Shown here: one piece after another, positions 52,299 to 63,093 of the stretch
Numbering within the stretch: the stretch's first letter is position 1
Layout: every line of letters starts with the position of its first letter
Virus record (IMG/VR): IMGVR_UViG_3300013125_000003
Coordinates: 1-64,000 of that record
DNA: 64,000 nt
Reading direction: 5' to 3' (one strand)
Source: a virus
Notes under the pieces: model-generated
What the model saw: only the letters and a program-made list of their open reading frames with translations
What the model was told of the DNA's origin: nothing
Databases searched by the model: none
Made by a program: the position numbers and the translations under genes

Positions 52299-53105
52299 AT
52301 GAGACACAGCGAAGAAGGCATAGCTGGAATACCTGGCGAGGAAACTTTCGTATCGACTTACATGGGTGTGGTGGAGGACATCGACGACCCAAACTACGAG
52401 GGTAGGTGCAGGATCAGAGTGTTCTCCGTGTTCGATGACCTGCCTACAGAGGACATACCTTGGGCAGTTCCGGCAGCAAAACCTATGTTCTTCGGACAGG
52501 ACGCAAAGGCCGGATCGATTTCCATACCGAAGGTTGGAGCTATCGTAAAAGTTAGGTTCGCAACCGGAGACATTTACACGCCCGAGTACATTCAGATCCA
52601 AGAGCTGGGAGACGACATCAAGGAACAGCTTAGAAAGGGAGGTTCCAAGTACGAGGGAGCTCACTTCGTCCTGTTCGACGGTGACGAGGAAATAAAAGTC
52701 TGGTTCGACAAGCAGATCGGCTTGCAGATAGAGTTGAAAAAATCTTTCGTAAGGATAGACAACGAAACGTCAAACGTTCTCATTGAGCACAAGGACAACT
52801 TATCGTCCATATCAATGGAAGGTAACGTGATAAGAATAGTCTCTGATTCCGAAGTCAACGTGACTACCGGTTCTAAGGCTACCGTGTCAGCAAAGACCGT
52901 TCACCTTGACGGTGTCAACACGGTCGTAGGTCACAGCACCATACAACACAGCGCGGTTCTCGGAGAACCTCTGATGGCTCTGCTCAAGACAATAGCAGCT
53001 GCGGTAGACGCAAAGATGCCTTCGACCGCAGGAGCAGTGTCAGCTGCGGTAGAAGCAGCAAAGCCCATGGTCCTTTCACGGTCCGTTACTATCGGAGCTT
53101 ACTAA
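52299..53105 (+). CDS. 5: gp5/VgrG-type baseplate spike (OB-fold, no lysozyme domain)
   Basis: A 268-residue protein. Residues about 15-110 form the gp5 OB domain: TYMGVVEDIDDPNYEGRCRI, RVFSVFDDLPTEDIPWAVP, KVGAIVKVRFATGDIYTPEY. A beta-rich stem follows (LQIELKKSFVRIDNETSNVL, GNVIRIVSDSEVNVTTGSKA) that would fold as a triple-stranded beta-helix. Unlike T4 gp5 there is no lysozyme domain, so a separate muralytic enzyme (such as the SLT protein at 7.6 kb) may be used. It converges with the minus-strand cargo island, the stops overlapping by 4 bases. Confidence 0.85.
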   Translation: MRHSEEGIAGIPGEETFVSTYMGVVEDIDDPNYEGRCRIRVFSVFDDLPTEDIPWAVPAAKPMFFGQDAKAGSISIPKVGAIVKVRFATGDIYTPEYIQIQELGDDIKEQLRKGGSKYEGAHFVLFDGDEEIKVWFDKQIGLQIELKKSFVRIDNETSNVLIEHKDNLSSISMEGNVIRIVSDSEVNVTTGSKATVSAKTVHLDGVNTVVGHSTIQHSAVLGEPLMALLKTIAAAVDAKMPSTAGAVSAAVEAAKPMVLSRSVTIGAY

Positions 53106-53932
53106 TAAATTATACTGAATTCGTTTTCGCACTGGAAGAGTTTCTGCTCTTCCCTAGGGTCGTTAGTATCACCCAAGTGAGCTTTTGTGAACTTTAAGGA
53201 ACCGGTTTCCACAGACTTTAAGACGTCCTTTTCCAGTTCTGGAAGAAGGTTTCTGTTCGGAAAAAACCTGCTAGAAGCAACGTACTTTCCCAAAAGGTCC
53301 TTTCTTACCATTTCCATGTGGTGCATCGTGATGAATTCCTTCTCAAAGACGAGAGTTTTCCTGTATGAATCGTCAATCATCCCACGAGTTGGGTCTATCC
53401 CAGAAAAGTGAGTCTGGAGAACGTGGTGCCTTGAATTTGCAGTGATGCGGTAGATGAATGGAACTTTCCACCTTGAGTAACCTCGGTGAAGTGTCGGAGT
53501 CACGTAATTGATGTAGTGCACGGCGGTAGCGTCCAACCCGTCAGCTTCTATCTTTTCCTTAGCCCTTGCGAACTCCTCTGCTCTGTAAAACTCGTCAGCG
53601 TCCATCGACAGGTAGTGCGTGCAACCCTCTAGCTTGGCAACTTCCAAGCAGCCTTGCCTCTTGTTAAGTTCGAACTTCTTAGCGTTCATCGCTTCCGCAG
53701 CAGACCTTAGGGAAGTTGGTCTGAACATCGTGAACTCGATGAGTTTGTCTATGAGTCCCGAATTTCTTAGTGATTCGAGTGTCGGTATGAGGTCTGGTGA
53801 AGCTTTGGTGCCACCCCAAGAGATTCTCTGGTAGGAAACGATCACTAGGTCGACGCTCGGTCGAATCGATCGTATCGAATGCTCCAGAGTCTCTAACCCA
53901 TCGAACACTATGTAGCCTGCTGCCAGTTTCAT
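53102..53932 (-). CDS. GT2-like glycosyltransferase
   Basis: A 276-residue protein with the GT-A start KLAAGYIVFDGLETLEHSIR, KLEGCTHYLSMDADEFYRAEE (DxD metal motif) and VHYINYVTPTLHRGYSRW. It resembles glycosyltransferases that decode as FDGxExLExSI...DxDEFY, which I have seen in phage cargo clusters. Donor and acceptor are unknown. It ends the five- to six-gene minus-strand island. Confidence 0.7.
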   Translation of the reverse strand: MKLAAGYIVFDGLETLEHSIRSIRPSVDLVIVSYQRISWGGTKASPDLIPTLESLRNSGLIDKLIEFTMFRPTSLRSAAEAMNAKKFELNKRQGCLEVAKLEGCTHYLSMDADEFYRAEEFARAKEKIEADGLDATAVHYINYVTPTLHRGYSRWKVPFIYRITANSRHHVLQTHFSGIDPTRGMIDDSYRKTLVFEKEFITMHHMEMVRKDLLGKYVASSRFFPNRNLLPELEKDVLKSVETGSLKFTKAHLGDTNDPREEQKLFQCENEFSIIY

Positions 53933-54237
53933 TTCTTTAGCTTCTCTACCAGGTCGGCGATTTTTTGAACCGAATTGAAGTTGGCCGGAGTGACCTCCGA
54001 TTCCGGAACGGCAACGTTGAATTCCTTTTCTAGGAAGACCACGATGGACACCATCGAAAATGAATCAACGTAACCCCCGCTTACCAGAGGAGTGTCGATC
54101 GATATCGCTTCGCGATCCCGGCAAGAGCACGATTCCCAAGGGAACATGCACGAGGATTCGTGAGTTTTCCTGTTTCCGACTTCCACAAACTCGTCGGTCA
54201 CGTACTGGAGTATCTTGCTAACTGTTTCTGTGTTCAT
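53929..54237 (-). CDS. Acyl carrier protein with Cys-rich insert
   Basis: A 102-residue four-helix carrier protein. GGYVDSFSMVSIVVFLEKEF carries the phosphopantetheine attachment Ser (Ser59, DSF) and helix II; VPESEVTPANFNSVQKIADL is the usual helix III-IV end. It resembles stand-alone ACPs of sugar- or peptide-modifying pathways more than the fatty-acid ACP (DSL). Between helix I and the active site is an unusual insert with C30, C37 and C39 (SSCMFPWESCSCRDRE). It overlaps the next gene by 20 bases. The acyl group and transferase partner are unknown. Confidence 0.8.
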   Translation of the reverse strand: MNTETVSKILQYVTDEFVEVGNRKTHESSCMFPWESCSCRDREAISIDTPLVSGGYVDSFSMVSIVVFLEKEFNVAVPESEVTPANFNSVQKIADLVEKLKK

Positions 54238-54970
54238 CTTCGTATCTTTTAATCAATTTTTTGTACTCAACATTAGCAGATGGATTAACCTTCCAAATAC
54301 TGGGAAGTACTTGCTTTTTCCACTCATAGTAAGGATTGTCTTCCACGTAAAGATCCCAAGTTAAGTGATACGCTAAGTGCTTTCGAGTCGCTACCCATTT
54401 CTTATTCTTAGCATAAACCAAACCGCTGACAGTTGTGTCCTGGTAATGAATTCCTTGGATAAGATCGAGGTTCTCTCTCTTAATCGTTACGAAATTGTTA
54501 GCAGTATTTGTAAAAACTGGACCAGGGATTACTAACGATTTTTTAGAAAGTTCATCGTACTGTTCAGTTCCAATTACTCGGTCTGCTCTCAGATAGTAAT
54601 TTCCACGGTAAAGAGAAGCAGAAGAAACTATTGCATCTGGTTGTTCCAAATTTTCGAGTATCTCGGAAAACATTGATTTCACATCGTAAACGTAAAGGTC
54701 GCCGTCCGTTATCGTGATGTATTTGTACTTCTCTAGCAACCACGAAAAATCGTGAATGAAGATGTCTATCGCTTGGTTGGAGATATTATCTTCGAATTGC
54801 ACATAGCCGGTTAGATCAGTCTGCAAAAAATACTCTGCAATTTGATCTGACTTTTCGCTTTTATTTTCAATGATAAAAAAATCGCAATCGGCATTTTTGA
54901 TGGAATCGAACGATTTTTTAATGATGTCTGGATGCAAGTACGTTAAAACTACACAGATATGATCTTTCAT
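54218..54970 (-). CDS. Glycosyltransferase-like protein
   Basis: A 250-residue protein with HICVVLTYLHPDIIKKSFDS, FFIIENKSEKSDQIAEYF and YKYITITDGDLYVYDV (TDGD as metal-binding DxD), the layout of a GT-A fold. The C-terminus includes HLAYHLTWDLY. It looks AT-richer than the structural genes. The stop is TAG. Substrate unknown. Confidence 0.65.
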   Translation of the reverse strand: MKDHICVVLTYLHPDIIKKSFDSIKNADCDFFIIENKSEKSDQIAEYFLQTDLTGYVQFEDNISNQAIDIFIHDFSWLLEKYKYITITDGDLYVYDVKSMFSEILENLEQPDAIVSSASLYRGNYYLRADRVIGTEQYDELSKKSLVIPGPVFTNTANNFVTIKRENLDLIQGIHYQDTTVSGLVYAKNKKWVATRKHLAYHLTWDLYVEDNPYYEWKKQVLPSIWKVNPSANVEYKKLIKRYEDEHRNS

Positions 54971-54971
54971 G

Positions 54972-55673
54972 TTACTTTACTATTTCAGGTCGGCGATACG
55001 TTGTTCCTCCGCCGTTTCTCTTGGCTGTGATAACGTTAACAAATATGCCGTATTCTCCTCGATCTTCCATGAACTTTTTGATTCGGTTCCACATATCAGC
55101 GTCAGCTGCGTAAGATTTTCCCGTTTCCTCTATCATGTTTCTGAAAAACATTCCAAAGTGCCTGTAATTTACGCAAGTTGAAACTTTGAACAGTCGATTG
55201 GTTTCAGGCCGATACTCGGTGTAAAGTTTGTCCGTTTCAATCGGTGGGTAAGCTCCGCACTTAGTCGAAACAAAATTAGTCCCCGTAGCTTCTATGCAAT
55301 CGGAAATTTCCTTAAGGTGATTTTCCAAAAACATATCATCGTGATCTAGGTGGCAAACGTAATCGTACCCTTCGTTTAGCGCTTTTCTGATCCCAACGTT
55401 AGACGCGTTTACTCCGCCGGTTCGCCAAAGGTCCATTCCTGAGTACTTGATACGTTCACCCGCGGCTGGGAGGTTTTCCACGTAAATTTTGCTGGTATCA
55501 ACTATCTCAGCTAACTCAAACAACTCGTCTGATTTGGAATAATCGTCTCCTATCAAAAAAAGTTTGTAGTCTTGGTGAGTTTGGTTCTTAACAGACTCCA
55601 GCGCTAATTTTAAGTGGGTAGCAGTTGACCCATCTAGTTTAAAGTACGTTGGCGTTACTATCGCTAGCTTCAT
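54972..55673 (-). CDS. GT2-family glycosyltransferase
   Basis: A 233-residue protein: KLAIVTPTYFKLDGSTATHL, SVKNQTHQDYKLFLIGDDYS and YDYVCHLDHDDMFLENHLKE (DHDD metal motif), all typical of family 2 glycosyltransferases. The C-terminus contains YRHFGMFFRNMIEE and DADMWNRI, consistent with an acceptor-binding lobe. It overlaps the next gene by 35 bases. Confidence 0.75.
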   Translation of the reverse strand: MKLAIVTPTYFKLDGSTATHLKLALESVKNQTHQDYKLFLIGDDYSKSDELFELAEIVDTSKIYVENLPAAGERIKYSGMDLWRTGGVNASNVGIRKALNEGYDYVCHLDHDDMFLENHLKEISDCIEATGTNFVSTKCGAYPPIETDKLYTEYRPETNRLFKVSTCVNYRHFGMFFRNMIEETGKSYAADADMWNRIKKFMEDRGEYGIFVNVITAKRNGGGTTYRRPEIVK

Positions 55674-56871
55674 CGAGTTTTTTCTTATTTTTAATGACGC
55701 TGAACCTTTTCTTTATTCCTGGGAAAGTTTGATACGGAACTCCGAGTTTTTCTGACACAGCTTTGCACATAGCCAACTCGTCAGCTCGGTGAGTATCGTC
55801 AAAGATAATGGTCACGTCTGTGTTGAACAGGTCCAAATTTTCCGAAAAACCAGTTCGGTTTCCCTTTCCGATCCATGGGCCATCGACCAATATGACATCG
55901 TACGTTAAACTAAGCAAAGATTTTTCAAGGACTGCTCGATCGTACCATTGACCGTTTAATGGAGCGTATATGTACGTTGACTTATCTGTTAGATTCATCC
56001 ACTCTGGGTCATTCTCTATGCTTATCATCTTGTACCTTTTAGCCAGATCGATGGTTCCGTAACCACTTCCTAATTCTAAGATGGTAGCACCAGGTAAAAT
56101 GTTGCGAAATACCCATCCGTAAAGTTTAGAATCGATAGCAAAACCTGGCGTCTTTTTTATTCCGTACTCCAAAAGCTTTCGGTTGATCGAAATTTTTGGA
56201 ATAGCCACACCGCGCACCCGGTTAGAAATATTTTCGCCATGAATGATTTGTAGAACTTCTAAATTCGAAACTTTTGTTCCGATCATCTTTTCTTTTATCC
56301 GACCATGCCCAGAGTAAATGCCAATTCCTGGAGAATCGGTCAGAATGGACGTAAATGGAGAAGTTCTATCACCGTACTTGGCAGTAGTAAAAATGTTGCT
56401 AACTGGATCGTACATACTGTAATGATCCACGTCAAAGTAAAAATTAGAGAGTTCTTCAGCTTTACCCAAGTACTCATTTGCTTTTTTCTGAAGAGTGTCT
56501 ACAAAATCTCTAGAATAACAATCGTCTCGATCCAATCTAGAAAGAAGGTAAATTCTTTCCTCAACGTTTTCAGTTATGAATTTTTCGATAGCCGAACCCA
56601 ACTCAGAAACCTGGCTGATCCTAATGACATGCTCGTTTGGCAAAACTGGTCCAACCTCTGTCACACTTTCGTCGACAATGGTCAAAAGAATAAAGTTTTT
56701 ATTGCTCTGATTTTTCAGAGAAGGTCGACAGTACGTGTCGTACAGGCTTATGCTATTCTTTAACCATTTTTCCCACTCTAAACCCAACTTGGATTTGCAG
56801 ATGAGCTCTCCATTTTCGTCGTACCATTTCATGGCTACTCTAGAAATGATGATGTGCTTGTACTTTTTCAT
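55639..56871 (-). CDS. Glycosyltransferase-methyltransferase fusion
   Basis: A 410-residue protein. Residues 1-225 resemble rhamnosyltransferase-like enzymes (HIIISRVAMKW, YCRPSLKNQSNKNFILLTIV, YLLSRLDRDDCYSRDF with a DRDD motif, and SPGIGIYSGHG). Residues about 245-400 form a Rossmann methyltransferase: GATILELGSGYGTIDLAKRY is the SAM motif, MISIENDPEW motif II, YDVILVDGPW motif IV. The fusion suggests a sugar that is transferred and then O-methylated, capping a glycan. Confidence 0.7.
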   Translation of the reverse strand: MKKYKHIIISRVAMKWYDENGELICKSKLGLEWEKWLKNSISLYDTYCRPSLKNQSNKNFILLTIVDESVTEVGPVLPNEHVIRISQVSELGSAIEKFITENVEERIYLLSRLDRDDCYSRDFVDTLQKKANEYLGKAEELSNFYFDVDHYSMYDPVSNIFTTAKYGDRTSPFTSILTDSPGIGIYSGHGRIKEKMIGTKVSNLEVLQIIHGENISNRVRGVAIPKISINRKLLEYGIKKTPGFAIDSKLYGWVFRNILPGATILELGSGYGTIDLAKRYKMISIENDPEWMNLTDKSTYIYAPLNGQWYDRAVLEKSLLSLTYDVILVDGPWIGKGNRTGFSENLDLFNTDVTIIFDDTHRADELAMCKAVSEKLGVPYQTFPGIKKRFSVIKNKKKLDEASDSNANVL

Positions 56872-58329
56872 TTAGTCTATTTTTTCGTATTTTCCAGTGA
56901 TCCTAGGAATAAAAACCTCCTCCGGTTGGTAGTGAGGTTTTATCATTTTTTTGTAGCTTTTACGAAGCTCTGATTCGAAATCAGTGTTCGGGTTTAGGGT
57001 TAAGCTCTGTTGGTGAAGTCTACGGTAGAAAACCGAATCTTTTAGCACAGAAACCGAAGCTAGCCAGCTGACTCTTTGGATGAACTCTGTGTCCGCTCCG
57101 CACTTCCATGCTTGGTACCCACCAGCGACCTCATCAAGTACTTGTTTCTTTATGCACATGATTCCGTGCGCAACATTTATCTTAGCTTCAACCGCACCGC
57201 CTGTCCTAAAGTTATTGTACGAAAGTCTAAGAACTTCACTGTTCAAATTATCTGCCACTTGCTTTACCAAAAATTCGCGCATGACATCGTCTGAATCGAA
57301 CCTAATTATGTATTCTTTAGTTGCTTGGGAGATTAGCGTGTTCGTCGTAATGTACGTTCCTGAATTCTCAAGCATCATGTACACTGATAAATTTCGGTAC
57401 TTTTTCTTTATCTCTAGTAGCTTACTTAAAGTTTCCTGGCACCCATCAACTCCGACGATAACTTCAAAATCATCGTACCCTTTGAAGTAAGATTGGCTCT
57501 CTATCGAATCTAAACACTCCTCAATGTAATCAGCAGTCTTGTATGCAGTTACCACTATGCTGAAAGTCTTTTTAATTGGATTTTCAGTCGTTGTAGTTGT
57601 AGTTTGAAACAGAGAATCTGAAAATTTCGGGTATTTCTTTTTCTTTAATGAGCTGAGAGTGATAAGAGTCTGCTTTCTGCTGTAATCGTTGATCATTGCG
57701 TGAGCTCTTTTTGATGTGTGTTCTTCCATGCTGGTCGTGTCAATAGCGATGACGCTATCTGTCTGAAGAGCAGAAAGGTTGGAATCGTTAAGGAGCTTTC
57801 CGCTGACTATCTGCTTAGAACTAACGATCTTTGGAATCAAAAAATTATTCTTTACCACGTACGAAAATTCAACCTCAGTTATCGAAGAAACGGATGATCG
57901 TCTGACCGACGAAAAAGCTAAGTTGAACTGATCTCCTGCTTTAACGTAACACAATTTAGTAGAAAGATTTCCTTGGTGTTGCCTAAAAAATAATCCGGAA
58001 TTTTCCGGTAAGACAAATGAGTTTATTAAGAACATTCTAGGATCAACGTAGAGTCGATCGTGCTCATGATAAGTTAACAAAAACTCAACGAAGTATGGAT
58101 TCTCTTCTACCACACTTGTTCCGGTTGGAGACCGGTGAATGTTAACTTCGATTAAGGAAACAATGGCAAAGAATTTATCGACCAGTTCTAACTCTCTACG
58201 CGGCATTCTTCCCCTAGTCATTATCACCAGCTCAAGGTTTTCCCCTCCAAGCACTGAAGCAATTGACCTGATTGATTTGGCAAAGAAATTTTTTGCCGAA
58301 TCATCGTAATAAGTGAAAACCTTTAGCAT
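56872..58329 (-). CDS. Glycosyltransferase with unknown N-terminal domain
   Basis: A 485-residue protein. Residues 1-250 are of unknown type (LKVFTYYDDSAKNFFAKSI, LVIMTRGRMPRRELELV), possibly a degenerate GT-A domain. Residues about 255-480 are a GT2 domain: TFSIVVTAYKTADYIEECLD, VIVGVDGC, TKEYIIRFDSDDVMREF (DSDD). First gene of the island; promoter region 58330-58407 is AT-rich and shared divergently with dnaJ. Confidence 0.7.
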   Translation of the reverse strand: MLKVFTYYDDSAKNFFAKSIRSIASVLGGENLELVIMTRGRMPRRELELVDKFFAIVSLIEVNIHRSPTGTSVVEENPYFVEFLLTYHEHDRLYVDPRMFLINSFVLPENSGLFFRQHQGNLSTKLCYVKAGDQFNLAFSSVRRSSVSSITEVEFSYVVKNNFLIPKIVSSKQIVSGKLLNDSNLSALQTDSVIAIDTTSMEEHTSKRAHAMINDYSRKQTLITLSSLKKKKYPKFSDSLFQTTTTTTENPIKKTFSIVVTAYKTADYIEECLDSIESQSYFKGYDDFEVIVGVDGCQETLSKLLEIKKKYRNLSVYMMLENSGTYITTNTLISQATKEYIIRFDSDDVMREFLVKQVADNLNSEVLRLSYNNFRTGGAVEAKINVAHGIMCIKKQVLDEVAGGYQAWKCGADTEFIQRVSWLASVSVLKDSVFYRRLHQQSLTLNPNTDFESELRKSYKKMIKPHYQPEEVFIPRITGKYEKID

Positions 58330-58407: not shown

Positions 58408-59319
58408 TTGGCCGAGGAAACTTATTATTCGGTACTTGGAGTAAAAAAGGACGCTAATCAGCACGATATAAAGAAAGCTTTCAGAAAGCTTTCAAAAGAG
58501 TATCACCCTGACAAGAATCCGAAGGGTGAGGAGCAGTTCAAAAAGATCAACGAAGCTTACTCGGTTCTCAGCGATCCGAAAAAACGTCAGCTTTACGACA
58601 CGACCGGTTCCGCAAAGGAACGCGTGCCTCCTGTCGGAGACCCGTACTCAGATTACTTCAGCCAGTTCAGGAACGTCGCGTTCTCGATGATGAACCTTGA
58701 GTACCTGAACATTCACGTTGACCGGCACTTCAAGCTCTCTGATCTCATGAACGGAATCGAGGACACAGTAACCTACTCAATCTCCAAAGCGAGCTTAGCC
58801 ACCTCCAAAGTTGAGGAAAAGAGCATTAAGTACTTTGTCAACATGTCTGAACGCGGTTACCCGTTAGCCATGATAGGCGATAATATAGGAATAGTCGTGC
58901 GCGTGCGCGGGGGAGGTTCCAGCCAGGAAATCGACGGGTTTGACGATGTTTTCAAGAGGCGTCAGCACGGAATAGCGACCGGCGACCTATTCATCAGGAT
59001 CATCATAGACATGGAAGGGCTCGAGATAACCGAGACTTCTGACCTAGTTCAGACGGTTGACGTTTCGGTGTACGACGTCCTGTTCACCGAGGAACTCGTC
59101 CTAGAGAACCCGTTCGGCAAAAAGTACAAGATAAAGACTATCAACTCTCCTGCTCTCTCTAACATTCAGGTTAGAATTCCGGAGCAGGGTCTCGTTTCCG
59201 CTATGGGAAAGCGAGGATCCTACATATTCAGGCTGAACGTCACCAGACCTGACATTTCCAAACTTAGTGAAGAAAAACTAGCCCTTCTTAAAGAATTACT
59301 TAGAGACCTTGATAAATAA
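58408..59319 (+). CDS. DnaJ-like co-chaperone
   Basis: A 303-residue type-II-like J protein. The J domain (residues 4-66) is complete with [20 protein letters not shown], the essential HPD in EYHPDKNP, and [15 protein letters not shown]. There is no zinc finger; the C-terminal two-thirds carry beta domains like DnaJ/CbpA substrate-binding parts ([34 protein letters not shown]). It would recruit host DnaK. Start is TTG, preceded by GGAGAT, one of the few Shine-Dalgarno-like sites here. It directly precedes the protease-scaffold and capsid genes, suggesting a dedicated capsid-folding chaperone. Confidence 0.85.
59311..59319 (+). promoter_or_regulatory. T4-type late promoter formed by the last dnaJ codons
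   Basis: GAT AAA TAA of dnaJ is GATAAATAA, 21 bases before TTG 59341. The spacing supports TTG 59341 as the start of the protease. Confidence 0.6.
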
Positions 59320-59340: not shown

Positions 59341-61368
59341 TTGATACGAGGCTCGCTAATAAATATCAAAAAAGTCTCAACGAAGTTGACTAGTACACAG
59401 ATCGGACTTAAAGACCCGGCACTTCTCCAGCAGGACGTAGTCCTCATTTTGGAGAGAGCGAACCAGCCTTTAGGTGTTTCTAAAAACGCCAACGGTGACA
59501 TCATACTGGAAGGGACCTGCGCGGTCTTCGGAAAGATGAATGACAATCACCGAGTGTACGAAAAGCAAGAGTACCTTCCTCACCTGAGTTACCTCATGGA
59601 AAAGATCAAGAAGGGACAGCTTTTCGGCGAGTTAGACCATCCTCAAAGCTTCGACGTTTCTCTAAAGAACGTCTCCCACACAATCGAATCCCTAACTTAC
59701 GACGAACCTTCTAACAGCGTTAAGATCCGACTAAGAGTTCTAGACACACCGAGCGGTAGGATAGCTAAGACCCTAGTGGAAGCAGGATGCACGATTTCCA
59801 GCTCCTCAAGAGCAGCTGGTCAAGTCCTGGAAAGTGGCAAAGTCAAGCTTCATAAGATATTCACGTACGACCTGGTGGCTGAACCTGGTTTCAACGAAGC
59901 TACCTTATCACAGGTAGCTGAGAACCTGCAAGGAAATTACACAATGCTTTTCGAATCACTGAGCACCCTGAAGGCGAATTCCATCACAAATTCGCTTGTG
60001 GACATCTCAGAAAGCTTCGATTTCGAGAATTCTGTGCGGGTTTACAAAATAAATAATCCAAACATTCAGACTCCACAAAATAACGAAAAGCAAATGGCTA
60101 ATGACTTTGTAACAAAAGAGGAAATGAATCAGTACTCACAGGTTGTTAAGAAAAGGTTTCAGACTCTTCAGGAAAAAATCAACCAGAACAACACTGATTT
60201 ACTAGCTCTTGGTGAAAAGGCCGATCAGGACCCAGTGACGGAGAAGCTCATTCAGTTCACCAACTACTTAGCTGGTGAAATGGAACAGATCGTCGAGTTT
60301 ACCAACTACCTGGCCACCATGCTTAACAAGGGAATAGGTTACACCGAGCACGTTGCCGAAAAGGTAAACAACGTGATCGATTACTCAGACTACTTGGCAG
60401 GCATGACGGAACAGAATATCGCCTTCTCAAACTACTTGAGCGAAAAGCTGAACCAGGGTCTCAACTACACCGAGTACGTTGGCGAGATGACGGAAAAGAG
60501 CATCAAGTTCGGAAACTACCTAGCTGAACAGCTGGATAAGGGAATTCAGTACACCGAGTACGTTGCTGAAAAAGCATCGCAAGGTCTGAACTTCTCGAAT
60601 TACTTGGCACAGAACATCAACGAAGCCATTAAGTACGCTGAGTACCTGGGCGGTAACATTAAGAAAGGTATCGCGTACACGGAATACATCGCTGAAACGA
60701 TGAACCAGAAGGTTGGAGCCGGAGCAATGGCTAAGACTCGCAAGCTTCTATCTGATGTAGCTGCTCTCAACGAGAGTGTCGATCACTCAGTTAACGAAGC
60801 TTCCCCAGTCGATGATCTAGTCTCAGCGGTAGATGGAATACTTTCAAACATCAAGTCAAACACGGCTAACGCAGTCCTTGAAAATAAGTACCCGTTCCTG
60901 AAACTCCTCACCGAGGAAAACAAAAAGAAATTTTACGCGCTTGACCCGGAAATCAAAACAGCAGTCGTTGAAACTCTACGTGGAGCGGTGTTCTTCAACG
61001 AAGGTGATGTCATTGGCATCATAGAAGCTGTCATGAACAAGCAGGAAGAAAATACACCTATCTACATCAGGTTCATGCCGGATAAGTACAAGGCTGTTTA
61101 CGAACAGATGAATGACAACGAGAAAAATTGGATCGCTGCTCAAGCTTCTACAGTTCACATCAACACGCCTTACCAAGCTAAAGCGTTCTGGGATTCTCGC
61201 GATCTCAGAGGAATTCACGAAAGAATTGCACAAAGTGCAAGTATAGATAACTCAGTTAACGAAAACCAAGGTAAAGAGGGTTTCATCTCGTTACAAGCAG
61301 TAAACGAAAGCGTACGAGGATATTCTAACTCGTACATTGAGTCTCTCAAACGCAGAGCAAACTCATAA
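59341..61368 (+). CDS. 21: Prohead protease-scaffold fusion (gp21/gp22-like)
   Basis: A 675-residue protein. Residues 30-200 are a T4 gp21-type serine protease: FGKMNDNHRVYEKQEYLP, GELDHP (catalytic His100), LKNVSHTI and GCTISSSSR (catalytic Ser around 153-156). T4 gp21 is 212 residues and separate from scaffold gp22; here the frame continues into a 420-residue scaffold. A junction ISE-SFDF near 223 fits a protease site. Residues 306-459 are eleven 14-residue helical repeats. ALNES, SVNEA, SVNEN and AVNES near the end are candidate self-cleavage sites. An internal promoter and ATG 60094 could make scaffold alone. Confidence 0.85.
   Translation: MIRGSLINIKKVSTKLTSTQIGLKDPALLQQDVVLILERANQPLGVSKNANGDIILEGTCAVFGKMNDNHRVYEKQEYLPHLSYLMEKIKKGQLFGELDHPQSFDVSLKNVSHTIESLTYDEPSNSVKIRLRVLDTPSGRIAKTLVEAGCTISSSSRAAGQVLESGKVKLHKIFTYDLVAEPGFNEATLSQVAENLQGNYTMLFESLSTLKANSITNSLVDISESFDFENSVRVYKINNPNIQTPQNNEKQMANDFVTKEEMNQYSQVVKKRFQTLQEKINQNNTDLLALGEKADQDPVTEKLIQFTNYLAGEMEQIVEFTNYLATMLNKGIGYTEHVAEKVNNVIDYSDYLAGMTEQNIAFSNYLSEKLNQGLNYTEYVGEMTEKSIKFGNYLAEQLDKGIQYTEYVAEKASQGLNFSNYLAQNINEAIKYAEYLGGNIKKGIAYTEYIAETMNQKVGAGAMAKTRKLLSDVAALNESVDHSVNEASPVDDLVSAVDGILSNIKSNTANAVLENKYPFLKLLTEENKKKFYALDPEIKTAVVETLRGAVFFNEGDVIGIIEAVMNKQEENTPIYIRFMPDKYKAVYEQMNDNEKNWIAAQASTVHINTPYQAKAFWDSRDLRGIHERIAQSASIDNSVNENQGKEGFISLQAVNESVRGYSNSYIESLKRRANS
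60048..60056 (+). promoter_or_regulatory. Late promoter motif inside the protease-scaffold gene
   Basis: AATAAATAA within the coding frame, 37 bases before the in-frame ATG 60094 (MANDFVTKEEM, residue 252). It would allow separate high-level synthesis of the 424-residue scaffold part. Confidence 0.55.
60256..60717 (+). repeat. Eleven tandem 42-base coding repeats
   Basis: Exactly 11 units of 14 codons without gaps. Consensus (F/Y)(S/T)(N/E)Y(L/V)A at the start and (G/N)I at the end, e.g. FTNYLATMLNKGIG and YTEYVAEKASQGLN. Two heptads per unit indicate a regular helix or coiled coil in the scaffold. Confidence 0.95.
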
Positions 61369-61386: not shown

Positions 61387-63093
61387 ATGGCATCAGTAAA
61401 AATGTTCAAAAGACTGAACGATGCTTCCCTCAAGGAAACTTGGGTACCTGTTTTGGAAAGTTACGGCGCAGATGAGGCCACTCTAAAGTCTCGTCCTTGG
61501 TTAGTTGACGTTGCTCACTACCACGCAATTTTCGATAACGCTGGTTCTCCAGTTAACGAAGCAGTTGTTCCTGGTCTATTTTACCAGCAGCCGGGTTCTA
61601 TCAGTGCAATGGGTTCCATTCACGCCCCGACTAACGCAATGACTCCGTTCTCCGGTTTTGGAACTGGAACGGCAGCAAAAGGCAGCTACTCGAACTCAGG
61701 TTCAGGGGACAAGTTCCCGAGCTTACTTCCAGTTGCAATCCAGGTTGCAGCAAAGACGATCGGTTTCGACCTCGTCGGCGTTGTTCCTATGGACGCTCCT
61801 GTCGGATTCATTCCTTACCTCGACTACGTCTACCAGGGCGGTAATACCGACACCCAGTACGAACCTTTCGTCATCAAGATCGAAGGAGTCGTCGGATCGA
61901 CCGTTCTAACAGCCGGTGGTACCTTCTCACAGCTTATCAGCGGTGACAACCTAACCGTTTCTGACGGTACTGGTAACCTTACCATCCAGTTCGTTGGATT
62001 CTCCCGTGTTGACGGTGTTGCGATGTTCAAAGTTCTGTCAGACTACAGCGACGGAACCAAGAAGATCACGGACTTCATCAAGACCGACGGTGTTTTAACT
62101 ACCGTTACAATCGGTGGTGCAGGATCCGTAAAAACCTACAAGCTGCTCGCAGCTAACGTACCTGGTCTCGCATCAGCTCTAGAAAACCACATCTCTGGTT
62201 TTACCACGACTAGCGATGACGACTACGCTACTCAGCCGTGGAACGGACCATTCCTTGGAGCAAACGGAACTCAGTACGAAGGTATGAAGAGGGAAGTTGC
62301 GGAAGTTTCCAAGTTCCGCCAGATGGGTCTGAAGATGTTCACCAAGTTCGTCGAAGCAAAAGGCGACCAGGTGGCTATCTCAGCATCAGTTGAACAGATC
62401 CAGGACCTTAACAGGGTATGGAACTTCGACGTTATCTCCATGCTGGAGAACGTTGCTGTCAATGAAGTTGCACAGTCCATCAACAAAAAGCTCGTCGACA
62501 GAGTATTCTCTCTTGGAGCTCTCCACACGACCAACATCAACGCAATTGAAGGTGCTGGTATCACTACACTCGACCTAACCGTTGGTTCAGGTTTCGAAAA
62601 CATCTCAACGTTACAGCGTAGGGTCGTTACCAAGATCCTCGAAATGGCTAACCTGATTTATCACAGGGGCCGTTTTGGAGCTGCTACCCACATCGTTACC
62701 AACGGTCGTGTAGCATCCGCTCTCGCAGACGTTGCAGGTTACACCTTCGCACCGTTCAACAACGACCTGCCGTCAGGACCTGGTCAGCTTCACCCAGCAG
62801 GTAAAGTTCACGGTCTGACTGTGTACGTCGATCCTAACCTGAAATTCGGAGACAACCGTATCCACATCGGACGTAAGGGTGCTGACGAAGAACCTGGTGT
62901 AAAGTTCCTACCTTACATCATGGCAGAATCGCTGCAGACTATTTCCGAAGGTACCTTCTCACCGAAGATCGGTCTCAAATCGAGGTACGCTATCACGGAA
63001 GCAGGATGGCACCCGGAAACTCAGTACATCACCCTGACCGTCGCTGGTCTTGGCGTTCTGACCGGATCCGTCGCTCCGTCGGCTGGTTACTAA
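61387..63093 (+). CDS. 23: Major capsid protein gp23-like
   Basis: A 568-residue HK97-fold capsid protein. T4 gp23 landmarks: SASVEQIQDLNRVWNFDVIS, NEVAQSINKKLVDRVFSLG, ILEMANLIYHRGRFGAATHI and ASALADVAGYTFAPF. The N-terminal 58 residues should be removed by the prohead protease at SPVNE-AVVPG (E58); T4 gp23 is cut after E65. Codon use is strongly biased to C-ending codons, as expected for the most abundant protein. No late motif lies directly before it; it is probably transcribed from the protease/scaffold promoters. Leader is A-rich (CAAAAAACA) without Shine-Dalgarno. Confidence 0.95.
   Translation: MASVKMFKRLNDASLKETWVPVLESYGADEATLKSRPWLVDVAHYHAIFDNAGSPVNEAVVPGLFYQQPGSISAMGSIHAPTNAMTPFSGFGTGTAAKGSYSNSGSGDKFPSLLPVAIQVAAKTIGFDLVGVVPMDAPVGFIPYLDYVYQGGNTDTQYEPFVIKIEGVVGSTVLTAGGTFSQLISGDNLTVSDGTGNLTIQFVGFSRVDGVAMFKVLSDYSDGTKKITDFIKTDGVLTTVTIGGAGSVKTYKLLAANVPGLASALENHISGFTTTSDDDYATQPWNGPFLGANGTQYEGMKREVAEVSKFRQMGLKMFTKFVEAKGDQVAISASVEQIQDLNRVWNFDVISMLENVAVNEVAQSINKKLVDRVFSLGALHTTNINAIEGAGITTLDLTVGSGFENISTLQRRVVTKILEMANLIYHRGRFGAATHIVTNGRVASALADVAGYTFAPFNNDLPSGPGQLHPAGKVHGLTVYVDPNLKFGDNRIHIGRKGADEEPGVKFLPYIMAESLQTISEGTFSPKIGLKSRYAITEAGWHPETQYITLTVAGLGVLTGSVAPSAGY

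Follow-up and report, generated by a model that had tools for sequence, protein, structure and literature searches.

The window analysed here comprises 64,000 nucleotides of a 131 kb fragment from an uncultured phage. A single open frame (59341–61368) encodes a protease in its N-terminal part and a long repeat region in its C-terminal part, and a gp23-type capsid gene begins directly downstream at 61387 (Table 1). An earlier reading made from the letters of the window (the sequence-only reading) had proposed that a protease and a long helical scaffold share this frame; the open reading frame, matches to S77 protease profiles and the repeats were all found. It had also placed a late-promoter motif and an in-frame ATG (60094) between the two parts. 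The ATG is present and in frame, and AATAAATA is present on the + strand, ending at 60055 rather than at 60056 as first given (60048–60056). The fused frame with its internal motif and ATG is thereby confirmed as an observation. The nested scaffold has a computed mass of 47.8 kDa, instead of the ~46 kDa originally suggested.

Table 1 Features of the protease–scaffold locus in the window
Feature	Positions	Strand	Remarks
T4-late-type promoter motif AATAAATA of the protease–scaffold gene	59358–59365	+	predicted RNA start ~59371
Fused protease–scaffold frame, probable TTG start	59386–61368	+	660 aa, 73.9 kDa
S77 (gp21-type) protease part with linker	59386–60093	+	His85 and Ser140, counted from TTG 59386
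Nested T4-late-type promoter motif AATAAATA	60048–60055	+	predicted RNA start ~60061
Nested scaffold frame, ATG start	60094–61368	+	424 aa, 47.8 kDa
Ten tandem 14-residue scaffold repeats, [YF]xx[YH][LV]-type	60256–60675	+	perfect spacing
Probable late promoter motif of the capsid gene, TATAGATA, within the scaffold coding sequence	61242–61249	+	
Major capsid protein (gp23-type)	61387–63093	+	PF07068, E = 3e-40

A DnaJ-type gene (58408–59319) adjoins the protease, and a GroEL-type gene is located elsewhere in the record (94456–96057; PF00118, E = 2e-69); folding helpers thus seem to be encoded by the phage itself. On the − strand, glycosyltransferase-type genes (PF00535, PF11316) form a block (53102–58329) between baseplate-type genes and the head genes.

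On profile searches and a predicted structure, the N-terminal part is an S77 (gp21-type) protease. It scores above the cut-off for PF03420 (32.2 bits, curated cut-off of 27) and for PF20034, matches phrog_207 (E = 6e-35) and aligns with T4 gp21 (hhalign, 96.6%) such that the GELxHP and SSR motifs coincide. The top three Foldseek matches of the predicted protease model are chains of 5jbl (T4 gp21; E = 7e-8). The residues initially named for the protease, His100 and Ser ~155, are invariant as His100 and Ser155/156 of that numbering, the catalytic His and Ser in 39 sequences, and are aligned with T4 His85 and Ser140/141.

The protease probably starts at TTG 59386. TTG 59341, the start assumed before, is upstream of AATAAATA (59358–59365) and fits less well. 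TTG 59386 is preferred because the ATAAATA core at 59359 precedes it by 27 nt, which is the modal spacing in the record, because its start context is better (score of 3.3, compared with −1.6 for TTG 59341) and because indels between the window and a 77% relative (L002) displace the residues ahead of it. Counted from TTG 59386, the catalytic residues bear the same numbers, His85 and Ser140, as in T4 gp21, which is probably a coincidence. The linker contains [LIV]xE sites like the cleavage sites of T4 gp21 (VAE 177, LFE 188 and ISE 207), and further sites of this type are present in the scaffold, near the C-terminus; because of these sites, self-release of the protease from the scaffold appears likely.

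The predicted structure, for which the input rows were the window and related loci only, has an ordered protease domain, then a low-confidence linker that includes Met237, and a helix from residue 244. As Met237 falls in the linker and the helix begins after it, the nested product is, on this model, the whole scaffold. Both its location between the protease and the gp23-type capsid gene and its long helical make-up, including a repeat region modelled at low confidence, are scaffold-like. No homology to the scaffolds of T4, PAU, 121Q or a cyanophage was detectable (hhalign probability <1%), and because this comparison failed, membership of the gp22 family is not claimed. By a crude count, the repeats form chains of 1 to 15 copies among the relatives, and the number of 14-residue repeats could relate to capsid size. 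At one related locus (L057, 7024–7026), an in-frame TAA occurs in a scaffold repeat at a position where related repeats read Gln, to be explained by a mutation, by an error in sequencing or by a truncated scaffold.

The one-frame fusion is present in nearly all of ~90 related loci from IMG/VR and phage records, including huge phages of 462–735 kb, Prevotella Lak phages and the cultured Tenacibaculum phage pT24, whereas the protease and scaffold genes are separate in T4, 121Q, PAU, Cr30 and a cyanophage. A single gene for both is common among related huge phages, rather than a peculiarity of the phage of the window. The fusion looks old, because the C-terminal domain of the pT24 fusion is homologous to the scaffold domain. 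The fused gene of pT24 (L011, 3959–5542) has a different middle region and neither a good nested methionine nor a good nested start, and pT24 may regulate its protease:scaffold ratio in another way. A Bacteroidota host is suggested by the A-rich gene starts poor in Shine–Dalgarno sites, by the relatives in Prevotella and Tenacibaculum, and by the bins of contigs grouped with bacterial genomes, three of four of which are Bacteroidota bins; this assignment is suggestive only, because bins can be contaminated. The gene for ribosomal protein bS21, carried by some related phages, was not found in the record.

In an alignment of 87 loci, the junction column holds a methionine in 75, and the remaining loci, except pT24, have a methionine within a few residues of it. 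All four loci found later, in bacterial genome bins, carry the junction methionine. The Lak phages, first scored as lacking one, have MEGVTVNELEQ, which is the best-scoring internal start of their gene. Between the junction methionine and the conserved scaffold start (xxVTxxxxNxYS), the spacing varies from 0 to 8 residues. A floating methionine is not expected of a residue conserved for protein reasons, and therefore supports a nested start.

The gene starts of the record have an A-rich stretch at approximately −20 to −10 and few Shine–Dalgarno-like sites; A-rich, Shine–Dalgarno-poor gene starts have been reported for Bacteroidota (PMC3155529, PMC6847099). A start-context matrix was trained on 113 starts of the record, called by a simple rule and with the fused gene left out. 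ATG 60094 scores 7.26, a value reached by 0.08% of 1199 internal ATGs, and the capsid gene start scores 8.26 in the same matrix. Of the 72 dereplicated loci, 65 have the nested ATG as their top-scoring in-frame ATG (8.75 expected). None of 500 synonymous recodings of the window attains its score, and across the 72 loci the mean z is 1.15 at the nested ATG and 0.02 for other methionines, with a positive mean in every group and a pooled p of 1e-9 that overstates independence because the loci are related. The score is thus not due to the amino acids alone, because synonymous recodings fall short of it. A Shine–Dalgarno sequence is absent from the nested start, which is not counted against it because such sites are depleted at the gene starts of this phage (12 of 114, compared with 118 of 654 internal ATGs). 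RNA structure at the nested start is unremarkable.

Synonymous change is suppressed around the same position. Between the window and L002, the junction contains invariant blocks of 19 and 40 nt in an ORF with an overall nucleotide identity of 74%. In the 11-locus clade, suppression is strongest in the protease 5′ region, at 60046–60126, which spans the nested promoter motif and start, and at 61201–61293; the nested-start peak ranks first and is reached in none of 1000 permutations (p < 0.001). It also ranks first in a separate 31-locus clade (permutation p of 0.004). Three clades of four to five loci showed no significant synonymous constraint. Taken together, the position of the methionine, its nucleotide context and its conservation strongly support a nested scaffold start.

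The + strand of the record contains 31 copies of ATAAATA, where 7.4 are expected under a first-order model, with the core mostly 26–29 nt before start codons. With both strands considered, 22 of 38 sites are within 90 nt upstream of called starts, in regions that make up 4% of the sequence. This enrichment of a T4-late-type motif (TATAAATA-type) before the genes of the record, together with a gp55-like late sigma factor (97757–98176; phrog_234, E = 2e-18), indicates a late promoter system. In relatives, position −13 of the T4-type late promoter is A or T (PMC1524935). All 11 dereplicated members of the clade to which the window belongs have the motif before the protease, and all 11 have AATAAATA at −46 to −49 relative to the nested ATG. 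The nested start proposed in the sequence-only reading is matched by a junction methionine, a start-like context, synonymous constraint, and a promoter motif in a record that also encodes a gp55-like sigma factor.

TATAGATA at 61242–61249, which lies 145 nt before the capsid gene, is probably the late promoter of that gene; the exact TATAAATA is found at this site in seven of ten relatives, and the synonymous constraint at 61201–61293 covers it. At the nested site, the promoter motif is missing from 40 of the 72 loci. The nested start therefore differs in reach from its promoter: the former appears general, and the latter is supported for only part of the family, because beyond the window's clade and a few more the motif occurs inconsistently. 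ATAAATA at approximately −31 in the 31-locus group was considered as a promoter and dropped, because the protease 5′ regions there are mostly devoid of the motif.

The 21–22–23 block of T4 has the same protease family, capsid family and gene order. As had been stated at the outset, gp21 and gp22 are separate in T4, where the record lists two genes. In T4, TATAAATA overlaps the stop of gene 21, 35 nt before gene 22, and another TATAAATA lies within gene 22, 142 nt before gene 23, which are nearly the same places as those of the motifs in the window. Since these positions match, the layout here is that of T4 minus the stop between 21 and 22. The differences are that T4 has two genes, with the gene 21 stop inside the gene 22 promoter, and that the scaffold sequences lack detectable homology. 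T4 gene 17, for which the T4 record lists shorter gp17 forms that arise by internal transcription and in-frame translation, is an earlier example of internal starts among T4-type late genes, albeit in a terminase rather than in a protease or scaffold.

The locus is best explained as a T4-type head block in which genes 21 and 22 have been joined and the scaffold promoter and start retained within the joined frame (probability of approximately 0.83). The conserved internal promoter motif and start very probably serve to make the scaffold alone. We infer that late transcripts from ~59371 would yield the 74 kDa protease–scaffold fusion, probably through weak initiation at the TTG, and that those from ~60061 would yield the 48 kDa scaffold from ATG 60094, to which internal initiation on the longer transcript perhaps adds. 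Fusion and free scaffold would co-assemble via their common scaffold part, which would bring protease into the prohead core as a minority component; the protease would then free itself and digest the core. The needed scaffold excess could come from a weak TTG for the fusion set against a strong promoter and ATG within the frame for the scaffold.

The scaffold might instead be made solely from the full-length transcript, by initiation of translation within it, with AATAAATA at 60048 not acting as a promoter. Such a mode would agree with a nested ATG and A-rich leader that are near-universal while the motif is missing in many loci, and the motif site also encodes a conserved peptide of the Lys-Ile-Asn-Asn type. 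We regard it as unlikely: the motif is invariant in the window's clade, with Ile encoded by ATA, a rare codon (15% of Ile codons), it agrees with the motif found ahead of the protease and other genes, and T4 has TATAAATA at the homologous place.

Less likely again is production as a polyprotein only, in which protease and scaffold are made in equal amounts, the protease cuts itself in the linker, and the internal methionine and motif have no role. The T4-like [LIV]xE cleavage-type sites in linker and scaffold are compatible with this, as are the self-cleavage of T4 gp21 (PMC9958956) and the existence of pT24, which is fused and has no good nested start. However, the floating methionine, the start-like nucleotide context and the suppressed synonymous change would be left unexplained. 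The T4 prohead contains ~580 gp22 and 55 gp21 (PMC9958956), so a single 1:1 polyprotein would supply far more protease per scaffold than the roughly 1:10 of T4. Self-cleavage may nevertheless occur in addition to use of the nested start. That a stop between two genes was lost through an error in assembly or sequencing, as the otherwise T4-like succession of gene 21, promoter and gene 22 could suggest, is refuted by independent contigs and has a negligible probability, since the same open frame occurs in dozens of them, down to ~30% identity, as well as in cultured pT24 and in Lak genomes whose records were deposited as complete.

Lambda and the herpesviruses are the classic examples of nested protease/scaffold genes, whereas T4 is the standard example of the two-gene form. 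In lambda, the scaffold is also produced alone via an internal in-frame start, and lambda C belongs to another protease family than S77. Herpesvirus UL26/UL26.5 pairs a protease–scaffold fusion with a shorter scaffold that is initiated in frame within the gene and has its own promoter, in an unrelated host and with a different protease family. P2 gpO is not known to use a nested scaffold start. Lambda and P2 both have protease and scaffold in one gene (PMC8508860), and the same source describes the overlap of lambda C with Nu3 (PMC8508860, citing Shaw and Murialdo 1980). P2 gpO thus resembles the fused gene as a single gene with both functions (PMC8508860) and differs from it in protease family. 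The likeness to lambda C/Nu3 drawn in the sequence-only reading holds for the single frame of protease and scaffold and for the nested start conserved at the scaffold boundary. It does not extend to the protein families, which here are an S77/gp21-type protease and a gp23-type capsid protein, and the window differs further in having a separate late promoter motif ahead of the nested start.

In the open literature searched, no account of a scaffold nested in this way was found for S77 or T4-type systems. It is reasonably likely that an ancient 21–22 fusion in T4-type huge phages (probably of Bacteroidota, and including Lak) retained the nested scaffold start, and in some clades also the promoter, and so converged independently on the solution of lambda and the herpesviruses, in which a few proteases are tethered to the core via a shared scaffold domain and free scaffold is in excess. 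Loss of a stop that in T4 sits within the promoter of the next gene offers a simple route to such an arrangement. One frame could supply little protease and much scaffold, and annotation of one product where two are expected would mislead proteomics and structural work on such heads. The occurrence of the nested form in an S77/gp23 system, conserved among phages whose genomes reach 735 kb, suggests that co-assembly of protease and scaffold has been selected for convergently.
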